In this document: positions 4,230 to 24,317 of the stretch, piece by piece
How positions within the stretch are numbered: position 1 is the stretch's first letter
Layout of the letters: each line of letters begins with the position of its first letter
Virus record (IMG/VR): IMGVR_UViG_3300025647_000264
Span: 1 to 24,317 of that record
Source: a virus
DNA length: 24,317 bases
Reading direction: 5' to 3' (one strand)
Notes under the pieces: generated by a model
The model's database searches: none
Told to the model about the DNA's origin: nothing
What the model saw: only the letters and a program-made list of their open reading frames with translations
Program-made: the position numbers and the translations under genes

Positions 4230-4599
4230 CAAACACAACCTCTTCTCCTATGAAAGGAAAACACTCAAATCTTAATTTAAACTGTCCTATAACATCTGTT
4301 GAAAACTCTAGAACATCTGAAACAGTATATTGTTCTGTATTATTGGTTGTTATTAGACAATTATCAGGAACATTTGAAACGGTAATAAAATCAACAGTAT
4401 CAGCTGATAAGGTGTACTTATCAATAGAAAGTTGCATTTCAGGTTTTGCAAGAATAACACCTTCTTTTACATAAAATTTATCATCAGTTACTGTTGAACT
4501 GTTTCCTAACTCAATAAAATCACCTTGCAAACCAGGTGATGTACCTGTATATATACTTTCAATGACGCCAGTGTCTTTGTTATAAATTGCATATTTCAC
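4219..4599 (-). CDS. Small tail-tip accessory protein with Ig-like C-terminal domain
   Basis: This 126-residue protein starts at GTG in a GTGA overlap with the stop of the hub gene; AGGA lies 9 bases upstream. The nearby ATG is in another frame. The N-terminus KYAIYNKDTGVIESIY is of the kind found in phage proteins of the fibre-assembly neighbourhood. Residues about 57-120 (LSIDKYTLSADTVDFITVS, then VSDVLEFSTDVIGQFKLRF and ECFPF) fit an Ig-like beta sandwich of a type often encoded just after large tail-tip genes. Inferred role: decoration or assembly of the hub or fibres. Coupling to the hub stop codon suggests production in proportion to it. Function is not proven. Confidence 0.6.
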   Translation of the reverse strand: MKYAIYNKDTGVIESIYTGTSPGLQGDFIELGNSSTVTDDKFYVKEGVILAKPEMQLSIDKYTLSADTVDFITVSNVPDNCLITTNNTEQYTVSDVLEFSTDVIGQFKLRFECFPFIGEEVVFDAY

Positions 4600-7500
4600 T
4601 TTTTAAGTCCTATTACTTGTATATAACGATTGGCCACGTTACACAACGGCATACCGGATTGTTTAACATATAAATACACAGTCACTGCTAGGTTTGGGTC
4701 GGTAGCTGTATAAACTGATCCTGCATTTGAGCCAGCATCATACATTGAACTATTACCGTACGCCCAATATGACTCATTATACAGAGTTCCTGAACCTCCA
4801 AAGCTAGAATAAGTAACCTTTACAGACATGGAACTATCAGTTGCTCCATATTGGATAGCATGGTTAAAACCAAAAGTAACAAAATAAGGTATTCCTGCAC
4901 TACTAGTAGTTAATGTTAACCTTGCCACTTCTGTCCAAACATTAGTATTTGGTATCGCTGTCACCGAACTAGTGAATGCACCATTGGGTACAGTAACAGC
5001 CTGATTTGCTATTTTTAAAGTATCAACAGATAAATCAGCAATTTTACCATTAGTAACAGCTAAGTTGTTGATATAAGAAGTATCAACAGCTAAGGAATTC
5101 ATAAAATTCCCTATAAAGCCATCTGCTCCTACTGTTTTGCTAAGTTTGTTTCCTGACCAGATAACTAAGCTCGTTAACCAATCAGGTGACTGTGGATGAT
5201 TTGCTGTAACATCTGCTCCATCTTCAGGCCTTAATCCATTGTTATCTGCAACATTTGACCAAAGAGCTTTGAGACCTAAACTAGCACCGTCAATCAGCTG
5301 ATTGGTGTTTGTAAAATTATTAGCCACTTCTGACCAAGAAGCTGTTGGTGCAGTTGATGAACGGTAAAACTTTAGATTGCTCGTGTTAAACCAAAGATCA
5401 CCAACACCTTCTACAGTAGAAGGGGCTGTGCTTTGAGAATATGTCCTAATCTTACTATCGGCTGTTGCCTGCGCACCTGCTGCAATTAAGAGAGCATCAC
5501 TAATACTAGAGTCTTGTGCAGATTGCCAACCATTGTTGTAAACATACATTTTATAACCAGCATCAGTATCAATCCAGATATCGCCTAACGAAGCTCCTGA
5601 TGGTGTATTTGGTTGATAATAAGTCGTAGTTAAACCGTCTACAGCTCCTTCTAAAATAGCAATATTAGTATCTTTACAACTTACCCAAGAACTACCGTTC
5701 CAACTGTAAAGATGATTACGATCGTTAGTATCGACCCATAGATCAGATGTTGTCAAGCCTAACGAACTAGAAGGGGCGTTATCTTGTCTATAAACATTAG
5801 ATTTTGTAGCATTATCTTGTGGTTTGTTAGCACCGGTTATTGAATTCCAAAGAGCTGTTGAACCTAATTCAGCATCATCAAAGAGTTGACTAGTATTTGT
5901 ATAATGATTACCTACAGCTAACCAAGTTGGGGTTGGTGCTGTTGTTGTCCTGTATAAAATTTGCTCTTCTGTGTGAAAAAACAAATCACCAATACCTTCA
6001 CAAGAAGTCGGATAAACAGATGCACTATACGTAACAACTTTACCGTCAGCAGTGTCTTGGGCTTCTATTGCTGCGTTAAGAGCAGTGACAATTTCAGAGT
6101 CACTCGCATCAGACCAAGTTTCACCATCAAAAAAGTAAACTTTGTTACCATTTGCAGTATCAAACCAAAGATCTCCTAAAGAGGCGTTCTCTGGTATAGT
6201 TGGTTGATAAAAAGAATAAGTTTTACCATCTACAACACCTTCTAAGAAAGCAATATCAGCATCTTTTACACTAACCCAGCTTGTACCGTTCCAAGTATAA
6301 GGATGGTTGTTGTTAGCAGAGTCATACCAAATATAATTTTCAGTAAACGTCCCATCGTTTTGTGGTGGATTTTCATCTACAAAAACCCTAGAATTAGTAG
6401 CATTAGGGGCAGGTAATCCTAAACCAAACATTTTATACCAATCAAAACCAGTACCAGATGCAAACAAAGGAGTACCATCAGCAGCTCTTATTAAGATATC
6501 TTGAAACTGAGCAAAACCTTGTTTATCAATTCTCCAACCTGCAAAATTAGTACCATCTGCTACAAAGTTATCTGACTCTAATACATTACCTATTTGAGCA
6601 GCATTAGTAATAATTGCTGTATTTGTAACTAAAGCGTTTGCTCCAACAGTACCAGCAAGCAACTGATCACCAGAAATAAAAGCTTTACCTTCATCGTGTG
6701 ATAAATCAGAACCACCATTGTAAGTAGCTAATATTCTTCCACCAGCAGAAATTACATATACCATAGAAGGGTTCGCTTCTAATATACCACTATTTGGTAT
6801 ATAGAAAATGAAAAGCCTTTCATTCTCAAACAAAGCAACACCAGCACTTACAGTTTCTAAGAAATCACCATTAACTAAAACATCAAAAGAATCCCAAGAG
6901 ACTTGGTTTGTATTTGGTGTATTAGGGTAAAAAGTTAAACCTACATAAGTATATAGATCAGGGTCTTTCTTTAACGCAGCTGATAATAAACCTGCAAATT
7001 CTGGACCTTCACCATAAGGGTCTTTTGCTGCAACTGTATAATACCTTTCTAAAGTATCTTCTACGGGGAATACAGCATAATTAGCATCAGATTCTATAAC
7101 AACAAGAGGCGTTTCCGAAGAATCGCTCTCATATTGTTTAAATACATAGGCTACTAAGTCTGGATGATCAACAATAGAACAGCGAGTTGTTACAGAGTTG
7201 AAGCTAGGCAAAACATTTAAACTTGTTATAACAGGTTCAGTATTTTCAAAAGTAGCTTGAACAGCTTCTGATGTAAAACCTGAAGTGTCAAAAACAGCAA
7301 CCCTAACAACAAACTTCCTTGTAGGAATCCCAAAATGTGTTATGTTTTTCTCTAAAGTAAAAGAATAACTACCACCATAAGTTTCGTTCTTTTCTACTGT
7401 AGTCTCATAAACAACATTATAATCTAAATCTAAGATTTGAATCCCATATTTGAAAATTGTATTTAATATAGCAGAATTTTCAGGGTTGTTATCCCAAACA

Positions 7501-10337
7501 ATATTAGCATCTTTGTTTTCAAAAACAGTACCATCTGTACCACCTATTCTGAGATTTACAGGCGGTTTTAGTTCAGAAGTATATATGATAAGGTTTACAC
7601 CATCATACTCAGCTAAAAGACGGCCTGAACTAGCTACATAAAAATCAGTAGTCCAGAAAACTTCAGCATATTCGACACCAGAAGACAGTCTTGCATATAA
7701 TAAATAGACATATAAAACATCACCTGTCCAAGGGTCTGTCGATCCATTTGCAACTGAAAAATAAGGACCATCGTTTACACTTAACTGAAAATTAGACCAT
7801 GAAATTATATGATTTGTAGGGTTCGCTGCGATAGTTAGACCTAAAAACCTATATGAATATATCTGAATTGTTGTTGCTTTAAAAGGATCAACAAAAGTAA
7901 CATCAGATGTTCTACCAGAAGTTGTTACGGTTTGAACACCGAAAAAAGCACTAGGAGCTTCAAGCTTAGGCAACACATATTTTACGTTAATTGTTGTACC
8001 TAAAAGTGAAAACACGGGTCTACCATCTTCAGCTGGTGGAGTAGAAGCTAATGAATAATATACATTATAGTGTGATAAATCAGAAATACTAACAGTAGCC
8101 CACTCTAATGTACCTGAGGAGTTGTTAACATTTGTAGACGGTAAATAAACTACCCATTCTGGTGCAGGTACAATACTATCATATATTGGCGGAATAGAGC
8201 CTTCAAAGTCATATTTATCAGACCAAGCAACCATACTAGGGTGAAATCTTGTAGCAGTTATTTCACAAGTTGTTCCTTCTTTCACTCTAGAAGAATCTAC
8301 TTTAAAATGAATAGGTTCTTCCACAAAAGGAAAGAGAGTTTTACTGTCAAGAAGAAAAAGATCACCTGGTTCTAAATAAACACTTTTTAATATATAAGAG
8401 AACTTAACAACAAAAGAACCTCTACTTGTTCTTACAATCTCTTCAGCTCTTGCTAATGCATGATAAGGATCTGTCATACCTTCTTCAAACGTTTCATATT
8501 CTAGCTTTACATCATTATCTTCTTCTAAAAACAGATCATAAAGTTCAGTGTTGTAATCAAAAGATACATATCTATCATAAATGTTAAACCTAGTTGTCCA
8601 GATAGTATAACTGTCATTGTGAATTCTAGCTCCAAAAGACTTAGTATCTTGTTGACCAGTAGCTTCCATCAAAACTCTGTAAGCCTTGTCGTTATTAGGG
8701 TCTCCTAAATATATTGAACCTGTCGTTAAACTTTTTGCTTGATCTTCCGTTATAATAGACAACTTCATGATCTCAGTATCTGTGATTACATTGTTGTCAT
8801 CTATAGAAGATTCATAAATTGTAAAATGACCAGTATTTAAAACACCAAAAATAACTTCATAAGTACCGGCTCTTTCTTTTTCAACAATAAAATAACCAGA
8901 AGAAGCCATTGAAGTAGAAGCACTGTCAAAAATACCATACTGATTTAAGAACTGATTTCTTTGCCATCTTTTACCTTCTTCATCAAGACCGCCTTTTGCC
9001 AGTGGTAGTTTTATACCACCTAGTCCTTTTAGACCACTGTCGTTAGTTCTTGGTGGCCAAGAAACTAAATCTTCTTTAAAGTTTTCAAACTCGTTGTGAA
9101 ACTTAACAACAGCTCTGTTATATTTATCAGATGCAGAAGGAAACTTTATTTCAAACTCTTGGCCTAAAGATAAGTCGTCATCGGTTATTGTAGGACATTC
9201 AGGCAAAGAACCATCATCATTAGGATAGACAATTTTTAGTTTATAAGTACCAGCTGACCAAACAAGTCTAGCATCAGCCATTGTACCTAAAATAGATTCA
9301 ATATTTTCTCTTACAGGTTTATCTGTATCAATGATAATATTACATTCAAACAAATATACAGGTCTTGTCCAGTACTGTGGCATTTCTTGAGAAGTAGGTC
9401 TCCAGATTTTACCAGAAACAGCAGCATTCTCCATTACAACTTTACCACATATTAGTGATGCTTCGTAAAAACTTTTTAAATCTATTTCACCAAGACGGAC
9501 TCCTCTGCCAGAATCTTTATCTAAAAGATAGTCTAACAAACATAAAGCAGGATTTACAGAATAAATCCTAGTATCAGCTACACTATAATCAGAACCGTTA
9601 AAAGTAATAGGTCTTATTTTTCGACCTTCAATAAAACTAGTAACATCGGGCATACCATTAAACTGAACATTCTTTTCATTCAACCTAACACAAGCTGTTA
9701 AATAAGCAATATCATCAAAAGAAGCTGTTGCCCTCTGAGGCGCATTTGCTGCTGCAATAGAATCTACACCACCATTTAAATGGTAATCTACTCTCAAACC
9801 AGATGATATCTTTTTTAACAACTCACCTGTATCTTTGACACCCCAGTCATATAAACTAGGATCATCTAAATATCTTGTATTATCAAAACAGACATCTCTT
9901 ACAGCATTTATAGGACCAACACAAAAGGTTTGTTGAAATAAGAGAAATTCATTTTTTGTGCCTGATTGGTCTTTAGTAAGTTGTTCAGCAGGAGCATCAT
10001 CATAATTTCTTGTGACTTCTATGATTGAACCGTCAATATCATAGGTAGATATCGTATAAGAGCCAGCAGCTTGACTGTTTGAACCAACAACAAACCATGT
10101 GTCTGCTGACGGCTCTACATAATGGAAAAATGAAAACGTTGAATGGAACAAACGATTTCCACCTACTTTAGCTCTACCATAAACAACAGGTAGAGGGTGT
10201 GCAGTATTTTCTGTTACAGTTTCAAAACCTCCTCTTATTTTTGAATCAGGCGGTTTTGGTGCTTTTGGTTTTGTTAAAACTTGCACAGCAACGACTGCAA
10301 TAGCTATTATTGGATAAATTATTAGTTCAACAGACAT
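4596..10337 (-). CDS. Central tail hub / tip attachment protein, lambda gpJ-like
   Basis: A 1913-residue protein with AGGAGA 6 bases before its ATG. Residues 3-20 are a hydrophobic stretch, then KPKAPKPPD, as at the start of many J-type or I/J-fused hub proteins. Residues up to about 720 hold the hub core: HPLPVVYGRAKVGG, NPALCLLDYLLDKDSGRGV (about 258-275) and NIESILGTMADARLVW, all characteristic of the family. Fibronectin III-like domains follow from about 724, interleaved with two copies of an 80-residue module (about 829 and 1131). Around 1216 a linker (SGDQLLAGTVGANAL) leads into two 197-residue tandem repeats (about 1315-1710). The C-terminal 200 residues (ending VIGLKK) are probably the receptor-binding part. 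It is longer than lambda gpJ (1132 residues) because of the repeats. It caps the tail tube and contacts the host surface. Confidence 0.9.
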   Translation of the reverse strand: MSVELIIYPIIAIAVVAVQVLTKPKAPKPPDSKIRGGFETVTENTAHPLPVVYGRAKVGGNRLFHSTFSFFHYVEPSADTWFVVGSNSQAAGSYTISTYDIDGSIIEVTRNYDDAPAEQLTKDQSGTKNEFLLFQQTFCVGPINAVRDVCFDNTRYLDDPSLYDWGVKDTGELLKKISSGLRVDYHLNGGVDSIAAANAPQRATASFDDIAYLTACVRLNEKNVQFNGMPDVTSFIEGRKIRPITFNGSDYSVADTRIYSVNPALCLLDYLLDKDSGRGVRLGEIDLKSFYEASLICGKVVMENAAVSGKIWRPTSQEMPQYWTRPVYLFECNIIIDTDKPVRENIESILGTMADARLVWSAGTYKLKIVYPNDDGSLPECPTITDDDLSLGQEFEIKFPSASDKYNRAVVKFHNEFENFKEDLVSWPPRTNDSGLKGLGGIKLPLAKGGLDEEGKRWQRNQFLNQYGIFDSASTSMASSGYFIVEKERAGTYEVIFGVLNTGHFTIYESSIDDNNVITDTEIMKLSIITEDQAKSLTTGSIYLGDPNNDKAYRVLMEATGQQDTKSFGARIHNDSYTIWTTRFNIYDRYVSFDYNTELYDLFLEEDNDVKLEYETFEEGMTDPYHALARAEEIVRTSRGSFVVKFSYILKSVYLEPGDLFLLDSKTLFPFVEEPIHFKVDSSRVKEGTTCEITATRFHPSMVAWSDKYDFEGSIPPIYDSIVPAPEWVVYLPSTNVNNSSGTLEWATVSISDLSHYNVYYSLASTPPAEDGRPVFSLLGTTINVKYVLPKLEAPSAFFGVQTVTTSGRTSDVTFVDPFKATTIQIYSYRFLGLTIAANPTNHIISWSNFQLSVNDGPYFSVANGSTDPWTGDVLYVYLLYARLSSGVEYAEVFWTTDFYVASSGRLLAEYDGVNLIIYTSELKPPVNLRIGGTDGTVFENKDANIVWDNNPENSAILNTIFKYGIQILDLDYNVVYETTVEKNETYGGSYSFTLEKNITHFGIPTRKFVVRVAVFDTSGFTSEAVQATFENTEPVITSLNVLPSFNSVTTRCSIVDHPDLVAYVFKQYESDSSETPLVVIESDANYAVFPVEDTLERYYTVAAKDPYGEGPEFAGLLSAALKKDPDLYTYVGLTFYPNTPNTNQVSWDSFDVLVNGDFLETVSAGVALFENERLFIFYIPNSGILEANPSMVYVISAGGRILATYNGGSDLSHDEGKAFISGDQLLAGTVGANALVTNTAIITNAAQIGNVLESDNFVADGTNFAGWRIDKQGFAQFQDILIRAADGTPLFASGTGFDWYKMFGLGLPAPNATNSRVFVDENPPQNDGTFTENYIWYDSANNNHPYTWNGTSWVSVKDADIAFLEGVVDGKTYSFYQPTIPENASLGDLWFDTANGNKVYFFDGETWSDASDSEIVTALNAAIEAQDTADGKVVTYSASVYPTSCEGIGDLFFHTEEQILYRTTTAPTPTWLAVGNHYTNTSQLFDDAELGSTALWNSITGANKPQDNATKSNVYRQDNAPSSSLGLTTSDLWVDTNDRNHLYSWNGSSWVSCKDTNIAILEGAVDGLTTTYYQPNTPSGASLGDIWIDTDAGYKMYVYNNGWQSAQDSSISDALLIAAGAQATADSKIRTYSQSTAPSTVEGVGDLWFNTSNLKFYRSSTAPTASWSEVANNFTNTNQLIDGASLGLKALWSNVADNNGLRPEDGADVTANHPQSPDWLTSLVIWSGNKLSKTVGADGFIGNFMNSLAVDTSYINNLAVTNGKIADLSVDTLKIANQAVTVPNGAFTSSVTAIPNTNVWTEVARLTLTTSSAGIPYFVTFGFNHAIQYGATDSSMSVKVTYSSFGGSGTLYNESYWAYGNSSMYDAGSNAGSVYTATDPNLAVTVYLYVKQSGMPLCNVANRYIQVIGLKK
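5216..6395 (-). repeat. Two tandem copies of a 197-residue module in the hub gene
   Basis: Copy A (about 5815-6395) and copy B (about 5216-5800) share a long ordered series of motifs: WNGxSWVSxKD, then IAxLEGxVDG, YQPxxP, ASLGDxWxDT, GDLxF, TAPTxxW, TNTxQL and LGxxALW. The WNG motifs are about 590 bases apart. Short aromatic blocks such as WYDS/WVDT and YxWNGxSWV look like sugar-contacting or strand-rich fibre modules. Protein similarity is clear while the DNA has diverged, so the duplication is older than the one in the fibre gene. Confidence 0.85.
6700..7855 (-). repeat. Dispersed pair of an 80-residue module in the hub gene
   Basis: Two segments, about 7600-7855 and 6700-6950, encode the same pattern: GLTxxxN, then (I/V)SWxxFxVxVN, a run with FY or YLLY, and finally (S/A)GR(L/I)LAxYxG. 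They are separated by about 900 bases holding fibronectin-like domains. The pattern suggests a fibronectin-plus-module cassette that was duplicated as a unit. Confidence 0.7.
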
Positions 10338-10345
10338 AAATTCTC

Positions 10346-10963
10346 CTATGCATCATTTACACCTCGACCCCATCTTATTGTAATAGATTCAGAACTTGCA
10401 AATATTTCTTCACAGCACGTATCGTGGGGGTGTGTTCTTGCTCTTTCTTCTTTATTCATATAAACACAGTTCTTAAAGTCAAGGTTTGCTACAGGACTTG
10501 AACCTTTAACTTCTACTTTAACCTCACCAAACTCATTAGCATCTATTAGGGCTGAAACACCTTCAATCAATCCTCTATAAACTATAAGAGTGTTTGAGAG
10601 TTCTTTTAGTGGTTTACCAGAGTTATCTACAAATCCAAACCTAATCTCCATAGTAAAACCAATCAAGTGGTGTGATTTTGCATAATTTATCAAAGCGCGG
10701 TCAGGATCTGAAAGCACTATTTTATACAATTCTCTATCAACCTTGCCATCTAATCCGGGAGGGTCTATTGCTAGTATTTTACCATCAGAAGAATAGCTGT
10801 GCTTGTCTGTTAATAAACCAGAATCAGTCATTTGTAAATCACTGTAAAACGTTGTTGACGTATACAAAATGCTTTCGTTTTTATCATAAATCCGAAATAA
10901 TAAAAAAGATTCGATTGCAGGTTCTTCTAGTAATGTTTTTAAAACATCATTAAATTCTATCAT
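10346..10963 (-). CDS. Tail hub-assembly protein (gpL / baseplate hub-type)
   Basis: A 205-residue protein whose ATG overlaps the previous stop (ATGA), with AGAGG 5 bases upstream. Motifs in order: SSDGKILAIDPPGLDGK, ELYKIVLSDP, FTMEIRFGFVD, LIVYRGLIEGVSALID and a C-terminal NCVYMNKEERARTHPHDTCC ending in ITIRWG. The pattern of a charged R/K run, then (P)xDT, then a hydrophobic stretch and a final W-G is typical of tip-assembly proteins encoded just before J-like hubs. Lambda gpL carries a cysteine-bound 4Fe-4S cluster; here three cysteines and two histidines (HPHDTCC) lie close together, which could bind metal, but four matching cysteines are not present. Inferred role: part of the tip complex between distal tail protein and hub. 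Confidence 0.6.
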   Translation of the reverse strand: MIEFNDVLKTLLEEPAIESFLLFRIYDKNESILYTSTTFYSDLQMTDSGLLTDKHSYSSDGKILAIDPPGLDGKVDRELYKIVLSDPDRALINYAKSHHLIGFTMEIRFGFVDNSGKPLKELSNTLIVYRGLIEGVSALIDANEFGEVKVEVKGSSPVANLDFKNCVYMNKEERARTHPHDTCCEEIFASSESITIRWGRGVNDA

Positions 10964-11562
10964 AAAGCCTCTATTAGTTTTATTGTACCATTATCCATTA
11001 ATATACCATCAGTATAGCTCATACCTATTACCGTATCTGTATCAAAGTAGAAATTTCCAATAACGTCATCAGCAATCTGTAAACCAGAGTTTGTAAAGTC
11101 TTTACGAATATTTGGAAAAATTTTTAAACTCAGCTCATTAGGGTAAAGTGTTTCGGTAACCATATATATTTTAGTATGACTCTCGGTTCTTATAAAAGTA
11201 CCTTGTGGTATTGTAAGATTATTAAATAGTAATGTTATTGAAGAATCTGTAACACCTGCTGAACCTTTTAAATCAAACGGAGTTGAAGTGTAAGAACGTT
11301 TAGCAACTACTCCTGTGTTTTGTGGCATAATAACTTGCACAATACTGTGATGACCTCTCATTACCATCCATGAAAACAATTCATCTGCTGTAGTAGAGAG
11401 GGGTGAGAGATTTGTAGTAATCTCCCACCTTTGTGCAGGTCTTTTAAAAACAGCTCTTTTCAAGCTTTGTGCATCTCCAATGAAAACAGGTTCGTTACTT
11501 GTTACTGTAAGTGGTGCTGCAAATTGTGCTATTACAGAACCGTTTCTATATAGACCATACAT
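10960..11562 (-). CDS. Distal-tail / minor tail protein
   Basis: A 200-residue protein starting at a TAATG overlap with the tape measure stop. The N-terminus has LTVTSNEPVFIGDAQSLKRA followed by RPAQRWEITTNLSPL. This combination of a surface loop, SLKR, and QRWE is common to a family of minor tail proteins encoded immediately after the tape measure in lambda-like phages. The second half (SITLLFNNLTIPQGTFIRT, then HTKIYMVTE and NELSLKIFPNIRKDF) is strand-rich and resembles the C-terminal part of the same group. Position after the tape measure and before the hub is that of distal tail proteins, which form the ring joining tube and tip. Assignment to Dit rather than lambda gpM is by position and is not certain. 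Confidence 0.6.
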   Translation of the reverse strand: MYGLYRNGSVIAQFAAPLTVTSNEPVFIGDAQSLKRAVFKRPAQRWEITTNLSPLSTTADELFSWMVMRGHHSIVQVIMPQNTGVVAKRSYTSTPFDLKGSAGVTDSSITLLFNNLTIPQGTFIRTESHTKIYMVTETLYPNELSLKIFPNIRKDFTNSGLQIADDVIGNFYFDTDTVIGMSYTDGILMDNGTIKLIEAL

Positions 11563-20160: not shown

Positions 20161-20176
20161 TCAAATATTCCTAAAT

Positions 20177-20204
20177 AAAGGGTAGCATCATTGTACTACC
20201 CTTT
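20177..20204 (-). terminator. Intrinsic terminator-like hairpin after the major tail protein gene
   Basis: A perfect 9-base-pair stem, AAAGGGTAG/CTACCCTTT, encloses a 10-base loop; read on the minus strand it is followed by ATTT. It lies in the largest gap of the window (57 bases), 13 bases after the tube gene stop. The U run is short, so termination is probably partial. It would reduce chaperone and tape measure transcription relative to the abundant tube protein. Confidence 0.75.
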
Positions 20205-20217
20205 TGTTAATTAACTA

Positions 20218-20802
20218 TTAAGCAGCATCAACAGTATAGATTCCAAAGAATTCTGATTGAGCTGATAAAGTCAATGTTGCTGTGTTAGCGTCAGTTAATT
20301 GAGGGTTAAGCAACAAAGCCTCGATTTTACCGATAAAATACCAAACAGAGTTTTCAACACTACCAATACCAGTTGTACCGGTGGTAGAGTCATAACCAGT
20401 AGGTTCAGTGTTCATAAGAGCAAAACGGAACACATACTGATTACCATCACCAACAGCAGCACCTAACAGAGTAGAATCAGCCCAATCAGAAGCTACTAAA
20501 TTGATTGTCAGTTCTAAGTTAGGTGAATCTGATTGACCTTGGATTTGTTGTGAAGTTTTTGCACCATAAACAGGAACGTTTACAATGTTAGGTGGTGTAC
20601 CTAATGAAGGAAACTCACGAACGTTTTTAACACGTACAAAAGTATTTGCAGCTTTAGTACCACCTGATGATTCAATCTCTGTAGCAAACAAAGCATCAAA
20701 CTCAGCTTTTGTATCTAATGTTGCAAAATCAGGCGGTGTGCTTGGCATAGCTAATGCCAAGTCAGAAAACATACCCGCGCCAATAGATGATAAATGAGAC
20801 AT
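20218..20802 (-). CDS. Major tail (tube) protein
   Basis: A 194-residue protein whose ATG overlaps the terminator gene stop (TAATG), with GGAG 7 bases upstream. It forms the hexameric tube in this type of tail. The sequence is strand-rich: VRVKNVREFPSLGTPPN, then VYGAKTSQQIQGQSDSP, LELTINLVASDW, YVFRFALMNTEP and a final LTLSAQSEFFGIY. The central SxQxxGQSDxPxLELTIN stretch with FxxxxN and an end of TLTLSxQSE is typical of tail tube proteins of lambda-like phages. It lies directly after the terminator-type gene and before the chaperones. The downstream hairpin fits high expression. Confidence 0.88.
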   Translation of the reverse strand: MSHLSSIGAGMFSDLALAMPSTPPDFATLDTKAEFDALFATEIESSGGTKAANTFVRVKNVREFPSLGTPPNIVNVPVYGAKTSQQIQGQSDSPNLELTINLVASDWADSTLLGAAVGDGNQYVFRFALMNTEPTGYDSTTGTTGIGSVENSVWYFIGKIEALLLNPQLTDANTATLTLSAQSEFFGIYTVDAA

Positions 20803-21206
20803 TAACTTTCTCCGAAGAAATTAAAAGGGATTGTATATAAAGTTCGATACAAATCACTATTATCACGGTCAATACCGTCTGGTGATAAGGAACTGTTACT
20901 AAACTGTATAACACCTGCATCTACTTTAATAGATTTGCCTTGTAGATAGGCATCAAGTGTATCTGCTAATAAATTAGAACTGCTTGGTCCTTTATTTTTA
21001 ACAGTAAATATTTCTATATTCAATAAACCTCTTGCTGATGTCAGGTTGATTCCGGTATCAGAAGACAATATTGTAACTCTCAAATAATCACTATTCTCTA
21101 CTTTACCTGTAAAGTTGCTAGGAAATATTTTGATATTCTCACTTAACCATGCTTCTGTACTAAACACAGAAAACACAGCCTCTTGCGTTGCTGAATATTT
21201 ACCCAT
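20802..21206 (-). CDS. Tail terminator-type protein (DUF4128-like)
   Basis: A 134-residue protein starting at a TAATG overlap, with AGAGG upstream. Pattern: N-terminal helix (ATQEAVFSVFSTEAWL), strand (DYLRVTILSS), then RGLLNIEIFTVKNKGPS with a helix (SNLLADTLDAYLQGK), and a C-terminal DLYRTLYTIPFNFFGE. The order of helix, strand, GxLxIxIFT(V), helix LADxLDAYLQGK and a final strand is that of the phage tail terminator-like family. In assembled virions this protein forms the ring that stops tube growth and links the tail to the head. Position just before the tube gene supports the call. Confidence 0.75.
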   Translation of the reverse strand: MGKYSATQEAVFSVFSTEAWLSENIKIFPSNFTGKVENSDYLRVTILSSDTGINLTSARGLLNIEIFTVKNKGPSSSNLLADTLDAYLQGKSIKVDAGVIQFSNSSLSPDGIDRDNSDLYRTLYTIPFNFFGES

Positions 21207-21562
21207 TATGCTACCTCTACAGTTTTTACTTTCAAGATATAACCATCACTTTCAAATGGTGTTTTTAGTTTGTAAGTTTTACTGTCAAAAGTAACAGTAT
21301 CAAAAACACCAAAATCACTAACATCACTCTGTTTAAAAAGAATATCATAATAAAAAGAATGAGAACCATCTTGTTGTTTTTTAGTTACTTTCTCAACAAC
21401 ACCTTTTACTACTATTGAACTAACATACTCAGAAGTGCTTGTTCCTGTTGAAAAATCAAAAGAACCTTCTGAGTATTTATTGATAGTTATGTCTTTAGCA
21501 AGAGTACCTATTAGTTTAAAAGCTAGATCTACATTTCTCTTAACTAAACTATCTAAGCTCAT
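21206..21562 (-). CDS. Head-closure / head-tail joining-type protein
   Basis: A 118-residue protein starting in a TAATG overlap. Motifs: LVKRNVDLAFKLIGTLAKDI, then a strand pair VKGVVEKVTKKQ, FYYDILFKQ and FDTVTFDSKTYKLKTPFES, with a closing DGYILKVKTVEVA. The layout of a helical N-terminus followed by a small beta barrel, with a strand reading TVTFDxKTYKL, resembles the head-closure proteins that sit between portal-side adaptor and tail terminator. It lies in exactly that place in the gene order. No catalytic residues are expected. Identification rests mainly on fold pattern and context. Confidence 0.6.
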   Translation of the reverse strand: MSLDSLVKRNVDLAFKLIGTLAKDITINKYSEGSFDFSTGTSTSEYVSSIVVKGVVEKVTKKQQDGSHSFYYDILFKQSDVSDFGVFDTVTFDSKTYKLKTPFESDGYILKVKTVEVA

Positions 21563-22041
21563 TAGTTAGCCCTCCACCAAGTCTTTGAACCAGCATTTAC
21601 TAGTAAAGGTCTTGTTAAAGAACGAACAGAATTAGATAGTTTGTTAGGGTTGTTTATGAACTCTAATTTAATAGAACCTACTTCTAAGTTTTTAACTGTA
21701 CCACTACTATCTAACAAGCCATCATTGTTTAATAAATGATAAGCTAGTTCTAGATTAGCTTTGATAATTCTGTTGGGAACAACAGTTTCTTCTAGAACAA
21801 CCAAAGAACCAATCTTAGGATCAAAGTATTCGCCAGTTCTAGGAAAAGCTAAATCTTGATCTTCATATACAGCCGAGCCTGTCCAAGACATTAAATCTAA
21901 CATGCTAGTGGCTGTAATTAAGGCTTGAGCTTTTAAAGTAGCATCTGCTTCAACCCATGCAGCTACATCTAATTTATCTGCAAAGTAAAGATCAGCCTCT
22001 TCTACTGTAACATAAGAATTAACGCCTTTAGACAAAGCCAT
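21562..22041 (-). CDS. Head-tail adaptor, DnaT-like family
   Basis: A 159-residue protein starting at ATG with AAGAGGTAAGTC upstream, 10 bases after the capsid gene. The N-terminus NSYVTVEEADLYFADKLDVAAW matches the family often named 'putative DnaT-like ssDNA binding', whose members open with YVSVxEADxYFAxR. Further features are ATSMLDLMSWTGSAVYEDQ with DLAFPRTGEYF, and a helical ANLELAYHLLN. The family sits between major capsid and tail terminator genes in many siphoviruses and acts as a head-tail connector; the DnaT name is historical and DNA binding is unproven. Position here is as expected. Confidence 0.75.
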   Translation of the reverse strand: MALSKGVNSYVTVEEADLYFADKLDVAAWVEADATLKAQALITATSMLDLMSWTGSAVYEDQDLAFPRTGEYFDPKIGSLVVLEETVVPNRIIKANLELAYHLLNNDGLLDSSGTVKNLEVGSIKLEFINNPNKLSNSVRSLTRPLLVNAGSKTWWRAN

Positions 22042-22051
22042 GACTTACCTC

Positions 22052-23263
22052 TTACGAGTGGAAAATAGGCAGGATGCCTAATGAAAGTGCAGAAGCAGAC
22101 TTACGAGTCCAAACACCAGTAGTACTTGCTAAGACATCTGTAGCAGCTGTTAATGCTTTTTGAGTACCAGACTCAAGAACATCATAGTAGTTTGCATTGC
22201 TTGGGAAAGCAACTTGAGAACCAGCCCAGTTGTAACCAGCAGGAGCTAATACATAACCCCAACGATACCAGATAGAAGTAGTACCACCACCATGATAAGC
22301 TTTAGCATCACGTTGAATCTCTACAGGATAAGGTACAGCCAGAGAAGACATTGCAATTGCACCAGGCAATACAATAAAAGAAGTCTTAGCCCCTGCAATA
22401 TCAACACCAGCACCTGTATTGATTTTAGTCAGTTCTGCACTTGACAGAGACTGATTAGCTCTGGTTTGGATTAAACGCAGTTTACCATTAAAGATAGTGT
22501 TGAATTCAATAGAACCATCACGAACACGATCACTATCTACTAAGTTAGCTGAACGTAAGGAAGACATTACTTCAGGAGAGGCTACTAAATAAGCGTATTC
22601 TGGAGAATAGTCTTTCCAAGCTTTATCCATTGCTTCTAAGAAGCCTTCAGCTCGTTGAGCACCAACATAAGCAGCATTAGCTGTTGTACCGTCAGCTTCA
22701 TAGCCTACTTTGTTGATCAGTTTAGCTGAACCTAAGTCTACATAGAAACCATATTTAAGGTCAGTAGGATCGTTGTCAAAGGTCTGACCACCTAAGCCTG
22801 TACCACCACCACCAACAGCAGCACCGTTGATAGCTTCAGAGATAGCAACACCACGTAAGATAGCCAGAATAGCATCGTGTTCGTCTGTAGCACGAGTTTG
22901 ACCGAAATCACGACCAATCTTAGCCAGACCGTCTTGTTGGCTGACAACTTGTTGCATATTAACAGAGTCAGCACCGTGAGTACGGACTGTTTTAATATAG
23001 TTTAAGAAATCAGAACTAAAGCTGGTAGTTGTACCGGCAGTTGCTGATGTCAAACTAGCAACGTTAATTGTTGGGTTTAAAGGTTTCATCCAACGCATCT
23101 GACCAACAAAGGTCTCTGTGCTGGTGTCGATTTGTGGGTTAGAACCTACGATACCTGTACCAGATAGCTTTTTAGCATCTGTGTAAGCTTCATCAGAGTA
23201 AGCACTAACTGCGCTTTGTAATGCGTATTCGGTAGCACCGTTAATATCAGTTCTTAAAGTCAT
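22052..23263 (-). CDS. Major capsid protein
   Basis: A 403-residue protein. The N-terminus (EYALQSAVSAYSDEAYTDAK) leads into a Gly/Thr-rich stretch and then a core with GLAKIGRDFGQTRATDEHD, LAILRGVAISEAINGA, AQRAEGFLEAMDKAWKDYSP, YAYLVASPEVMSSL and a late VPYPVEIQRDAKAYHGGG followed by IWYRWGYVLAPAGYNW. Size, position after the scaffold and the late strand-rich domain fit an HK97-fold capsid protein that forms the icosahedral shell. The start is fixed because TAA stands directly before the ATG in the same frame. No clear ribosome site is seen, which is odd for an abundant protein. No cleavage site was identified. Confidence 0.85.
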   Translation of the reverse strand: MTLRTDINGATEYALQSAVSAYSDEAYTDAKKLSGTGIVGSNPQIDTSTETFVGQMRWMKPLNPTINVASLTSATAGTTTSFSSDFLNYIKTVRTHGADSVNMQQVVSQQDGLAKIGRDFGQTRATDEHDAILAILRGVAISEAINGAAVGGGGTGLGGQTFDNDPTDLKYGFYVDLGSAKLINKVGYEADGTTANAAYVGAQRAEGFLEAMDKAWKDYSPEYAYLVASPEVMSSLRSANLVDSDRVRDGSIEFNTIFNGKLRLIQTRANQSLSSAELTKINTGAGVDIAGAKTSFIVLPGAIAMSSLAVPYPVEIQRDAKAYHGGGTTSIWYRWGYVLAPAGYNWAGSQVAFPSNANYYDVLESGTQKALTAATDVLASTTGVWTRKSASALSLGILPIFHS

Positions 23264-23290: not shown

Positions 23291-23932
23291 TCAAAGCTTA
23301 CCCTCATTAGCGAGTTTAAGCACTTCAGCTTGTGTCATTTCAAACAGAGACCTTTTAGAACTAGGAGAATTGCTTGTAACATTAGAACTAGTACCCCCAC
23401 CAGAATTTACTTTAGGCTTAAATAAAAAGGACTGCTCTTCACTTTCAGCATACCCTTTAACAAAATCCTTTAAAGTAGCTCCAGATTCGTGTACCCAATT
23501 ACCATCTTTATCTTGGACAAGTTGTACAGATATTTCTTTAAAAGCTAGGTCTTTTGCTTTATTGTTTTTAAAGTCTAAACCACCTAACTCACTAGATAAT
23601 ATACTATCTCTTGTCAAACCTAATATTTGATTCTTTAATGTTTTATTTTCATTCTCTATTTCAGCAAGTTTCATTTCATAAGCTTCTTTATGTTTACCCT
23701 CTTCTTCAAGCCTTTTTAATTTAGCTTGTTTTTCTTGCTGTTCATATTCTGCAGCCTTTTTAAGAGCTAAATCCCTTTCAGCATACAATTTGTCCATAGA
23801 CTCTTTGATTGAAAAGAATTTTTCTTTGTAACTAGCTTCTGATTCAGTAGTCTCTGTTTGTTTAGCAGGAGCTTCAGGCTCTACTGGTTCTTCTACTGAA
23901 TTGTTTTCTTCTTGCACGTCTTGTTCTGTCAT
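23291..23932 (-). CDS. Capsid scaffolding protein
   Basis: A 213-residue protein from ATG at 23932, with AAGG 8 bases upstream; a GTG at 23950 keeps the frame open but lies inside a hairpin loop region and is less likely. The N-terminal 45 residues are acidic and Pro/Glu-rich (EENNSVEEPVEPEAPAK). A long charged coiled coil follows (residues about 40-105: KEKFFSIKESMDKLYAERDL, LKRLEEEGKHKEAYEMKLAE), then a compact C-terminal part with SSLF-type segments ending SLFEMTQAEVLKLANEGKL. This is the usual form of phage scaffolds: coiled coil plus a small basic C-terminal capsid-binding helix. It guides shell assembly and leaves before DNA packaging. It stands immediately before the capsid gene. Confidence 0.82.
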   Translation of the reverse strand: MTEQDVQEENNSVEEPVEPEAPAKQTETTESEASYKEKFFSIKESMDKLYAERDLALKKAAEYEQQEKQAKLKRLEEEGKHKEAYEMKLAEIENENKTLKNQILGLTRDSILSSELGGLDFKNNKAKDLAFKEISVQLVQDKDGNWVHESGATLKDFVKGYAESEEQSFLFKPKVNSGGGTSSNVTSNSPSSKRSLFEMTQAEVLKLANEGKL

Positions 23933-23940
23933 TTTAATTA

Positions 23941-23959
23941 CCTTGAGCACCGCTCAAAA
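23941..23959 (-). promoter_or_regulatory. Hairpin overlapping the scaffold ribosome binding site
   Basis: Minus-strand TTGAGC-GGT-GCTCAA forms a perfect 6-base-pair stem with a 3-base loop, extended by two G-U pairs. Its 3' arm contains AAGG, the ribosome binding site of the scaffold gene. It lies between the polymerase-like gene stop and the scaffold start. Possible translational control, an RNA processing site or a hairpin promoter; function not shown. Confidence 0.5.
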
Positions 23960-23973
23960 TCGCCTCACCGAGA

Positions 23974-24317
23974 CTAACCAATACCATACCAATATTTATT
24001 TTTATCGAAAGTGTGTTGAATATCTTCTAAGATATCTTCTTTCTTTAAAATATCAGCATCTTCTAGTGTTTTACCACCAACAACAGACCTACCAGCCACC
24101 GGAAGGAGACCTGTGTCAATAGCTTCGTTTAAATACTTATCGTATTCTTCTTGAGGAAGACCACGTTTCCTCATCTCATTTAATGTATCTAATAATGAAT
24201 TTTTAGAGATTGTTGATGCATAGATCTGTCTTAAAGCATCTCTTGCTTCAAGCATATCAGCTGCATTAGTGACAAAAGCGTCATGAACAGTGCTTGTAGG
24301 TACACTATTCTTTTGCC
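23974..24317 (-). CDS. C-terminal fragment of a T7/mitochondrial-type single-subunit RNA polymerase (or polyvalent protein ending in that domain)
   Basis: The frame is open from the window edge to TAG at 23974; 113 residues are visible and the start lies outside. Near the beginning is VHDAFVTNAAD, which lines up without gaps on T7 RNA polymerase HDSFGTIPAD, the palm motif C that holds catalytic Asp812 (the Asp here is at 24280-24282). Mitochondrial polymerases have a similar VHDxxWTHAxD. The following helix (MLEARDALRQIYASTI), LLDTLNEMRKRG and a late LLPVAGRSVVGGKTLEDADIL match the order in the T7 C-terminus, including its L-DIL near the end. It extends about 30 residues past that point and ends WYGIG rather than FAFA. 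Pol I-type DNA polymerases have VHDE here instead. It may be a stand-alone polymerase or the end of a large virion protein. Confidence 0.7.
   Translation of the reverse strand, partial: QKNSVPTSTVHDAFVTNAADMLEARDALRQIYASTISKNSLLDTLNEMRKRGLPQEEYDKYLNEAIDTGLLPVAGRSVVGGKTLEDADILKKEDILEDIQHTFDKNKYWYGIG

Follow-up and report, generated by a model that had tools for sequence, protein, structure and literature searches.

What is a protein that ends like a single-subunit RNA polymerase (ssRNAP) doing directly upstream of the scaffold gene of a long-tailed phage? The window analysed here, a stretch of 24,317 nt (IMGVR_UViG_3300025647_000264), is the late region of such a phage, encoded on the minus strand; it carries late genes only, and the early region lies outside its span (Table 1). 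The reading frame at issue (23974-24315, minus strand) gives 113 amino acids and is open at the window end, where the gene runs off. Taken alone, the fragment matches PHROG 2051 (RNA polymerase) with an E value of 1.5e-5 and Pfam RNA_pol with an E value of 0.0047, the 16.2 bits of the latter match being under the Pfam cut-off of 22. The first-pass annotation had described a polymerase-like C-terminus, its HDxF taken as palm motif C, adjoining the scaffold gene of a siphovirus with a tape measure protein of 2482 residues. The surroundings bear this out: the scaffold gene does adjoin, the capsid gene is recognised by its profile and the tape measure gene is matched by tape-measure PHROGs. Assignment to a long-tailed phage follows from the distal tail, major tail and tail terminator proteins, which fit one, and no tail sheath was found among the window ORFs scanned. 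Downstream of the distal tail gene, a 1913-residue protein (4596-10337, minus strand) has clear PHROG matches that are all of unknown function.

Table 1. Features of the window (coordinates without prefix) and of the overlapping contig L005
Feature	Coordinates	Strand	Basis or remark
MuF-RNAP gene, last 113 codons and stop (residues 1519-1631)	23974..24317	-	100% identical to part of the L005 copy
Palm motif C, TVHDAFVT	24268..24291	-	MAFFT alignment to T7 H811/D812; codons H1529 24283-24285, D1530 24280-24282
Head scaffolding protein	23291..23950	-	phrog_206, E 6.7e-12; listed with a GTG start, an internal ATG may be the true start
Major capsid protein	22052..23263	-	phrog_247, E 6.1e-17
Head-tail adaptor Ad1	21562..22041	-	phrog_477, E 5.6e-25
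Tail terminator	20802..21206	-	phrog_179, E 7.4e-7
Major tail protein	20218..20802	-	phrog_158, E 2.4e-9
Tail tape measure protein, 2482 aa	11562..19010	-	many tape-measure PHROGs, best E 3.9e-60
Distal tail protein	10960..11562	-	phrog_1302, E 1.9e-9
Complete MuF-RNAP gene, 1631 aa	L005:2636-7531		between portal and scaffold

MuF and polymerase parts of the full-length protein

An IMG/VR scan yielded the overlapping contig L005, which reproduces the fragment without a difference, has the same neighbour genes as the window and reaches 7 kb further upstream; the full-length sequence considered from here on belongs to L005, another contig apparently from the same phage population, and not to the window itself. 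The 113 residues are the end of a protein that passes the RNA_pol cut-off over its complete length of 1631 residues. Pfam places Phage_Mu_F (PF04233) at residues 131-237 (56.7 bits, cut-off 29.6) and RNA_pol (PF00940) on two stretches of the same chain (45.9 bits, cut-off 22), and both families recur in four further family members scanned; in EBPR siphovirus 1, which has a split gene, the RNA_pol score of the first part is under the Pfam cut-off. PHROG matches of the full protein are to phrog_241 (head morphogenesis, 7.5e-59) and to RNA polymerase (5.9e-21). By sequence and model, the protein has a MuF-type minor head part at residues ~1-340, with the gene lying beside the portal gene and ahead of scaffold and capsid as expected of one, and residues ~550-1631, the C-terminal two thirds, are a complete DNA-dependent ssRNAP of the T7 family with an intact active site.

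The first-pass annotation had named an aspartate of palm motif A, a lysine and tyrosine of motif B, a MuF or other domain and a profile match to ssRNAPs as what the complete protein should reveal, and every one of these was recovered. Motif A is DASSSGAQ with Asp D1103, aligned with T7 D537 by hhalign and MAFFT, and motif B supplies R1165, K1169 and Y1177 (T7 R627, K631, Y639). The DxxGR motif is DHRARIY at 838-844 (D838/R842), which hhalign sets on T7 DWRGRVY; a placement of motif A at this same DHRARIY was overturned by that alignment. The HS motif contributes H1504 (T7 H784) and motif C, as HDAF, has H1529-D1530 at T7 H811-D812 (MAFFT). All five motifs line up by MAFFT with T7, with five of the non-virion polymerases (nvRNAPs) introduced below, with other phage RNAPs and with the N4 enzymes. 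Among 61 single-ORF fusion proteins, the equivalents of K631, Y639 and the DxxGR Asp and Arg are identical throughout (61/61), those of H784, H811 and D812 as well as the motif C Phe are invariant in all 59 that cover them, and R1165 as the R627 equivalent is kept in 58; the motif A Asp is invariant across the family alignments. A dN/dS of 0.03-0.09 in five informative pairs shows the fusion proteins to be under strong purifying selection.

The polymerase core has only about 20% identity to T7. Searched as a single sequence against PDB sequences, the protein gave weak T7 matches only (E 0.13), improving to E 0.0015 with a profile; the top match there, 1uly, is limited to an upstream part and was put down to chance. 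An AlphaFold2 model of residues 445-1631 (pTM 0.71, mean pLDDT 73.5; low confidence for the ~970-1090 insert and for a stretch before motif C) aligns by VIA with T7 RNA polymerase at Z 30.0 and rmsd 3.5 over 521 residues covering T7 42-883, as compared to Z 26-27 for mitochondrial RNAPs and Z 18.4 for the N4 mini-vRNAP. The modelled structure is that of a right-hand fold with a T7-like N-terminal domain, and the downstream correspondence noticed at first pass in the fragment continues to T7 residue 883.

Between DxxGR and motif A, the L005 gene carries an in-frame 124-residue module (L005:5534-5905, aa 967-1090) that is absent from most relatives and replaced in L012 by a different module of ~240 residues. 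Pfam gives no match for it, and similar sequences occur in hypothetical proteins of jumbo phages of the phiKZ type (FLC9, 46.8%; PhiPA3 gene 373).

A family of fusions, a second polymerase and two candidate promoter classes

A profile scan found relatives encoded in at least 568 IMG/VR stretches, the 61 single-ORF MuF+RNAP proteins being part of this family. The order portal, MuF+RNAP, scaffold, major capsid is constant in all loci complete enough to judge, the fusion proteins scanned have lengths of 1463-1801 residues, and each of 13 long records contains exactly one MuF gene, which is the fused one. Matches across the RNAP part were found in only three of 50,697 phage records: DSS3_VP1 and DSS3_PM1 (Naomviridae; 30.8% identity to the fusion protein), which have the same fusion plus a canonical RNAP, and EBPR siphovirus 1 (51.9%), which has it in a split gene. 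Public annotation leaves the RNAP part unnamed in all three, listing a head protein and a hypothetical protein in EBPR siphovirus 1 and a minor head protein-like or head morphogenesis protein in the DSS3 phages. The phages that carry a MuF-RNAP are common in metagenomes and make up a large, mostly uncultured group. A prophage origin was considered and rejected: among 84,980 genomes of bacteria and archaea scanned, only one metagenome-assembled genome had matches, on two contigs, which argues against a prophage lifestyle. Pelagibacter phage Kolga EXVC016S (L121), a related siphovirus with a canonical RNAP, has a related MuF protein of 633 residues on which no fused RNAP was seen at the sensitivity of the search; it might serve as an unfused outgroup to date the fusion.

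The PF00940 search revealed a stronger, canonical ssRNAP beside the fused copy in 12 of the 13 long genomes or records, the sole exception being the partial record of EBPR siphovirus 1, in which no nvRNAP was seen. The best stretch of the canonical enzyme scores 86-272 bits (it is broken into several frames in G007), as against low PF00940 scores of the fused copy in whole genomes, and where the map is known its gene lies ahead of those for DNA polymerase and primase-helicase. In a phylogenetic tree whose deep branching is weak, the MuF-RNAPs form one clade with support of 100, apart from the nvRNAPs, which group with the enzymes of autographiviruses and Kolga. Recent duplication of the nvRNAP as the origin of the fusion was rejected on the strength of these positions. 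Fusion to a virion protein and pairing with a non-virion RNAP, two marks of the functional class of virion RNAPs, are found together in this family.

Two motif classes were recognised as candidate promoters. Class I, CCCGTTAAATTAACCC, emerged from an intergenic word search in five genomes; with as many as 2 mismatches allowed, 1.25 Mb of loci contain 91 sites, all of them on the coding strand. In 68 of 93 loci a site falls between the fusion gene and scaffold; relatedness among many of the loci means that these counts are not independent. In whole genomes it precedes the terminase, scaffold, replication and early blocks. DSS3_VP1 has AATAGGKTRCGTTAAAGAGGGGG in its place, with strong hairpins downstream of it, much like T7 starts. 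That class I comes directly behind the fusion gene is suggestive of heavier transcription of scaffold and capsid than of the fusion protein itself, as would fit a low-copy virion part.

Class II was found by inspection of early gaps and comprises 27 bp, with a GCG and A-rich block upstream of an 11-mer core. Exact matches to the core number 29 across 10 genomes; every one is on the coding strand, and the opposite strand has no exact match. When the first four genomes are shuffled, 0-0.13 matches are expected per genome and strand. The other six genomes played no part in motif discovery; in these, the reversed motif gave no match and the upstream block, which was outside the 11-mer query, is also conserved at fixed spacing. 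The copy at G007:69669 is without the upstream block and looks like chance. All 10 genomes have at least one class II copy no more than 6 kb upstream of the nvRNAP gene, the distance in G006 and G007 assuming a circular or permuted map. The exact 11-mer is absent from DSS3_VP1, and a strict pattern (exact GCGNAAA, GG before TATC) had no match in the IMG/VR scan; some known class II sites differ from the strict pattern by a letter, and it was the looser 11-mer that worked on whole genomes.

Many class I and class II copies (G001, G003, G005, G009, DSS3_VP1) stand directly 5' of short RNA hairpins, strongest in DSS3_VP1 with a mean MFE of -9.6 as compared to about -4 elsewhere, which suggests transcripts with 5' stem-loops. 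T7-type starts often directly precede an RNA hairpin. The window itself contains neither class I nor class II convincingly and, with late genes only, shows no nvRNAP gene either. Its gap at 20161-20217 (minus strand) has GTTAATTAAC, followed by AAAGGGTAG...CTACCCTTT and T-rich sequence, that is, a terminator-like hairpin beside sequence similar to the class I core.

What the fused polymerase may do

Our favoured reading, which we consider probable, is that of a bifunctional virion protein, with an injected MuF-RNAP reading early genes from class II and the nvRNAP then reading from class I. The MuF part would bring a few polymerase copies into the procapsid at the portal; these would exit via the tail, ahead of the DNA or with it, and in the cell they would transcribe the first phage genes without the host RNA polymerase. 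Promoters of the MuF-RNAP would be the class II sites, TTGCGnAAA-N5-GGTATCTTATATGA, upstream of the nvRNAP gene, and the nvRNAP thus produced would read class I (ACCCCGTTAAATTAACCC; AATAGGKTRCGTTAAAGAGGGGG in DSS3_VP1) ahead of the terminase, replication and scaffold/capsid genes. We infer packaging, ejection and the assignment of each motif to its enzyme; virion carriage and injection, suggested already at first pass, gain strength from the MuF fusion in 61 proteins, from the slot between portal and scaffold and from the second RNAP in 12 of 13 records. Since a minor head protein carries a complete T7-type RNAP, these phages probably inject a ready-made polymerase together with their DNA and so begin transcription of the phage genome.

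The most serious competitor to this proposal leaves the early genes to the host enzyme, which would recognise class II in a sigma-dependent manner, and gives the injected MuF-RNAP a different job, for instance priming replication or drawing the DNA in by transcription. Class II indeed contains TATGAT or TATGAA, the former resembling a -10 box, and sometimes TTG ~16 bp upstream. However, the upstream element is GCG plus an A-rich block at one fixed spacing and not TTGACA, the 11-mer core is unchanged in 10 diverged genomes, and an RNA hairpin directly follows many of the copies, and we rate this competing account as rather unlikely. Class II could also be a regulator site. A different possibility is that the MuF-RNAP acts late only, tethered at the portal while heads assemble and coupling late transcription or DNA packaging to the procapsid, with no injection at all. 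MuF proteins may remain at the portal instead of being ejected; they are described as portal or procapsid components (PMC5512222), and the fusion gene lies among late structural genes. Yet the scaffold and capsid genes already have another phage RNAP and class I motifs to serve them, and the virion-fused RNAPs of P23-45 (PMC10770324) and N4 (PMC5512222) are injected early polymerases; we hold the late, tethered role for improbable.

Least of all do we favour an RNAP half that has lost enzymatic activity and persists for a structural or DNA-binding role within the minor head protein. The wide divergence from T7 in the core and the low PF00940 scores of the fused copy would be in line with it, but the tested catalytic residues are invariant wherever covered in the 61 proteins, the dN/dS of the informative pairs is low and the whole fold is preserved in the model, so that loss of activity seems very improbable. 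The bifunctional virion protein, to which we return, finds its parallels in systems already known.

Relation to known systems and gene interruptions

The first-pass annotation had drawn a parallel to N4, and one part of it stands: N4 gp50, like the MuF-RNAP, has a right-hand ssRNAP domain within a multidomain late protein, and a second RNAP accompanies it in the phage. As to type, the parallel fails, with Z 30 to T7 against Z 18 to N4. N4 gp50 is a protein of about 3500 residues with a C-terminal metalloprotease-containing region from short-tailed phages (Schitoviridae), whereas the MuF-RNAP has an N-terminal MuF carrier, comes from a long-tailed phage and shows T7-like motifs (DxxGR, DASSSG, HDAF); in the Pfam and PHROG scans it revealed MuF and RNAP only, and no metalloprotease. 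The two appear separate in the tree, where the MuF-RNAPs are a clade of their own and the deep branching order is weak. Membership among the N4 vRNAPs was set aside in view of the fold nearer T7, the T7-like motifs, the missing metalloprotease and the family's length range. N4-like vRNAPs, according to Iyer et al. 2017 (PMC5512222), occur only in N4-like phages or prophages.

The nearest functional analogue is P23-45 gp96, a virion RNAP on a structural protein of a long-tailed phage from which an nvRNAP takes over (PMC10770324). The arrangement of paired virion and non-virion polymerases is that of N4 and of P23-45 (PMC5512222, PMC10770324). The P23-45 polymerases are two-barrel enzymes, the virion one at the N-terminus of the tape measure protein, whereas the MuF-RNAP is of the right-hand T7 type on a MuF protein and has neither the two-barrel form nor the tape-measure fusion. 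Virion RNAP fusions named in PMC10770324 are those of crAss-like phages, N4-related phages and the P23-45 tape measure. In MuF effector fusions and polyvalent proteins, MuF carries an enzymatic domain that is presumed to reach the host; the RNAP modules reported in the accessible text of PMC5512222 are in N4-type proteins, not with MuF. With T7 RNAP and the ssRNAPs of autographiviruses and siphoviruses, the MuF-RNAP has the whole fold and the catalytic motifs in common; these T7-like enzymes are stand-alone and made in the cell, whereas the MuF-RNAP is fused and forms a separate deep clade.

No MuF-RNAP fusion was described in the open-access literature searched, a body of work to which the presumed original description of the DSS3_VP1 group does not belong. 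Virion RNAPs and MuF effector fusions are known, and a T7-type RNAP on a MuF protein is new within that literature. Virion RNAP architectures described so far are few (N4-like, crAss-like, phiKZ-like and the P23-45 tape measure); a T7-type RNAP on MuF, if true, would be an independent solution to the virion-packaged polymerase and would suggest that large enzymes can naturally enter cells on MuF. The broader proposition, that a large group of uncultured lytic siphoviruses transcribes its early genes independently of the host through a MuF-delivered T7-type RNAP, which turns on a second T7-type polymerase from its own bipartite 27-bp promoter class, and that these phages represent an independent origin of the virion-RNAP cascade and exemplify MuF as a general injection carrier, we regard as evenly balanced. 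DSS3_VP1 and DSS3_PM1 are sequenced isolates, which makes packaging, injection and promoter use directly testable; DSS3_VP1 grows on Ruegeria pomeroyi DSS-3 and has a minor head protein of 1463 residues beside an RNAP of 732. DSS3_VP1 is reported to use dU-DNA (PMC12697855), adding interest as to how its polymerases read their templates.

In several relatives (L008/L020, L007, L002, L006, L009, L015, L019), interruptions of the fusion gene recur at certain positions. An intein-like in-frame insert with weak HINT/LAGLIDADG matches lies in the MuF domain before CRS (L007, L008), and group I introns are found near DxxGR (aa 857), near motif B (1174) and near the HS motif that precedes motif C (1505); L008 has five Rfam group I matches. 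The gp47/gp49 split of EBPR siphovirus 1 is probably due to a group I intron (40.5 bits, under the gathering score). The canonical RNAP of a 104-kb genome (L127; G007:97000-104241) comes in pieces too, with breaks close to the DxxGR, A and B motifs and no Rfam match at the gathering score.
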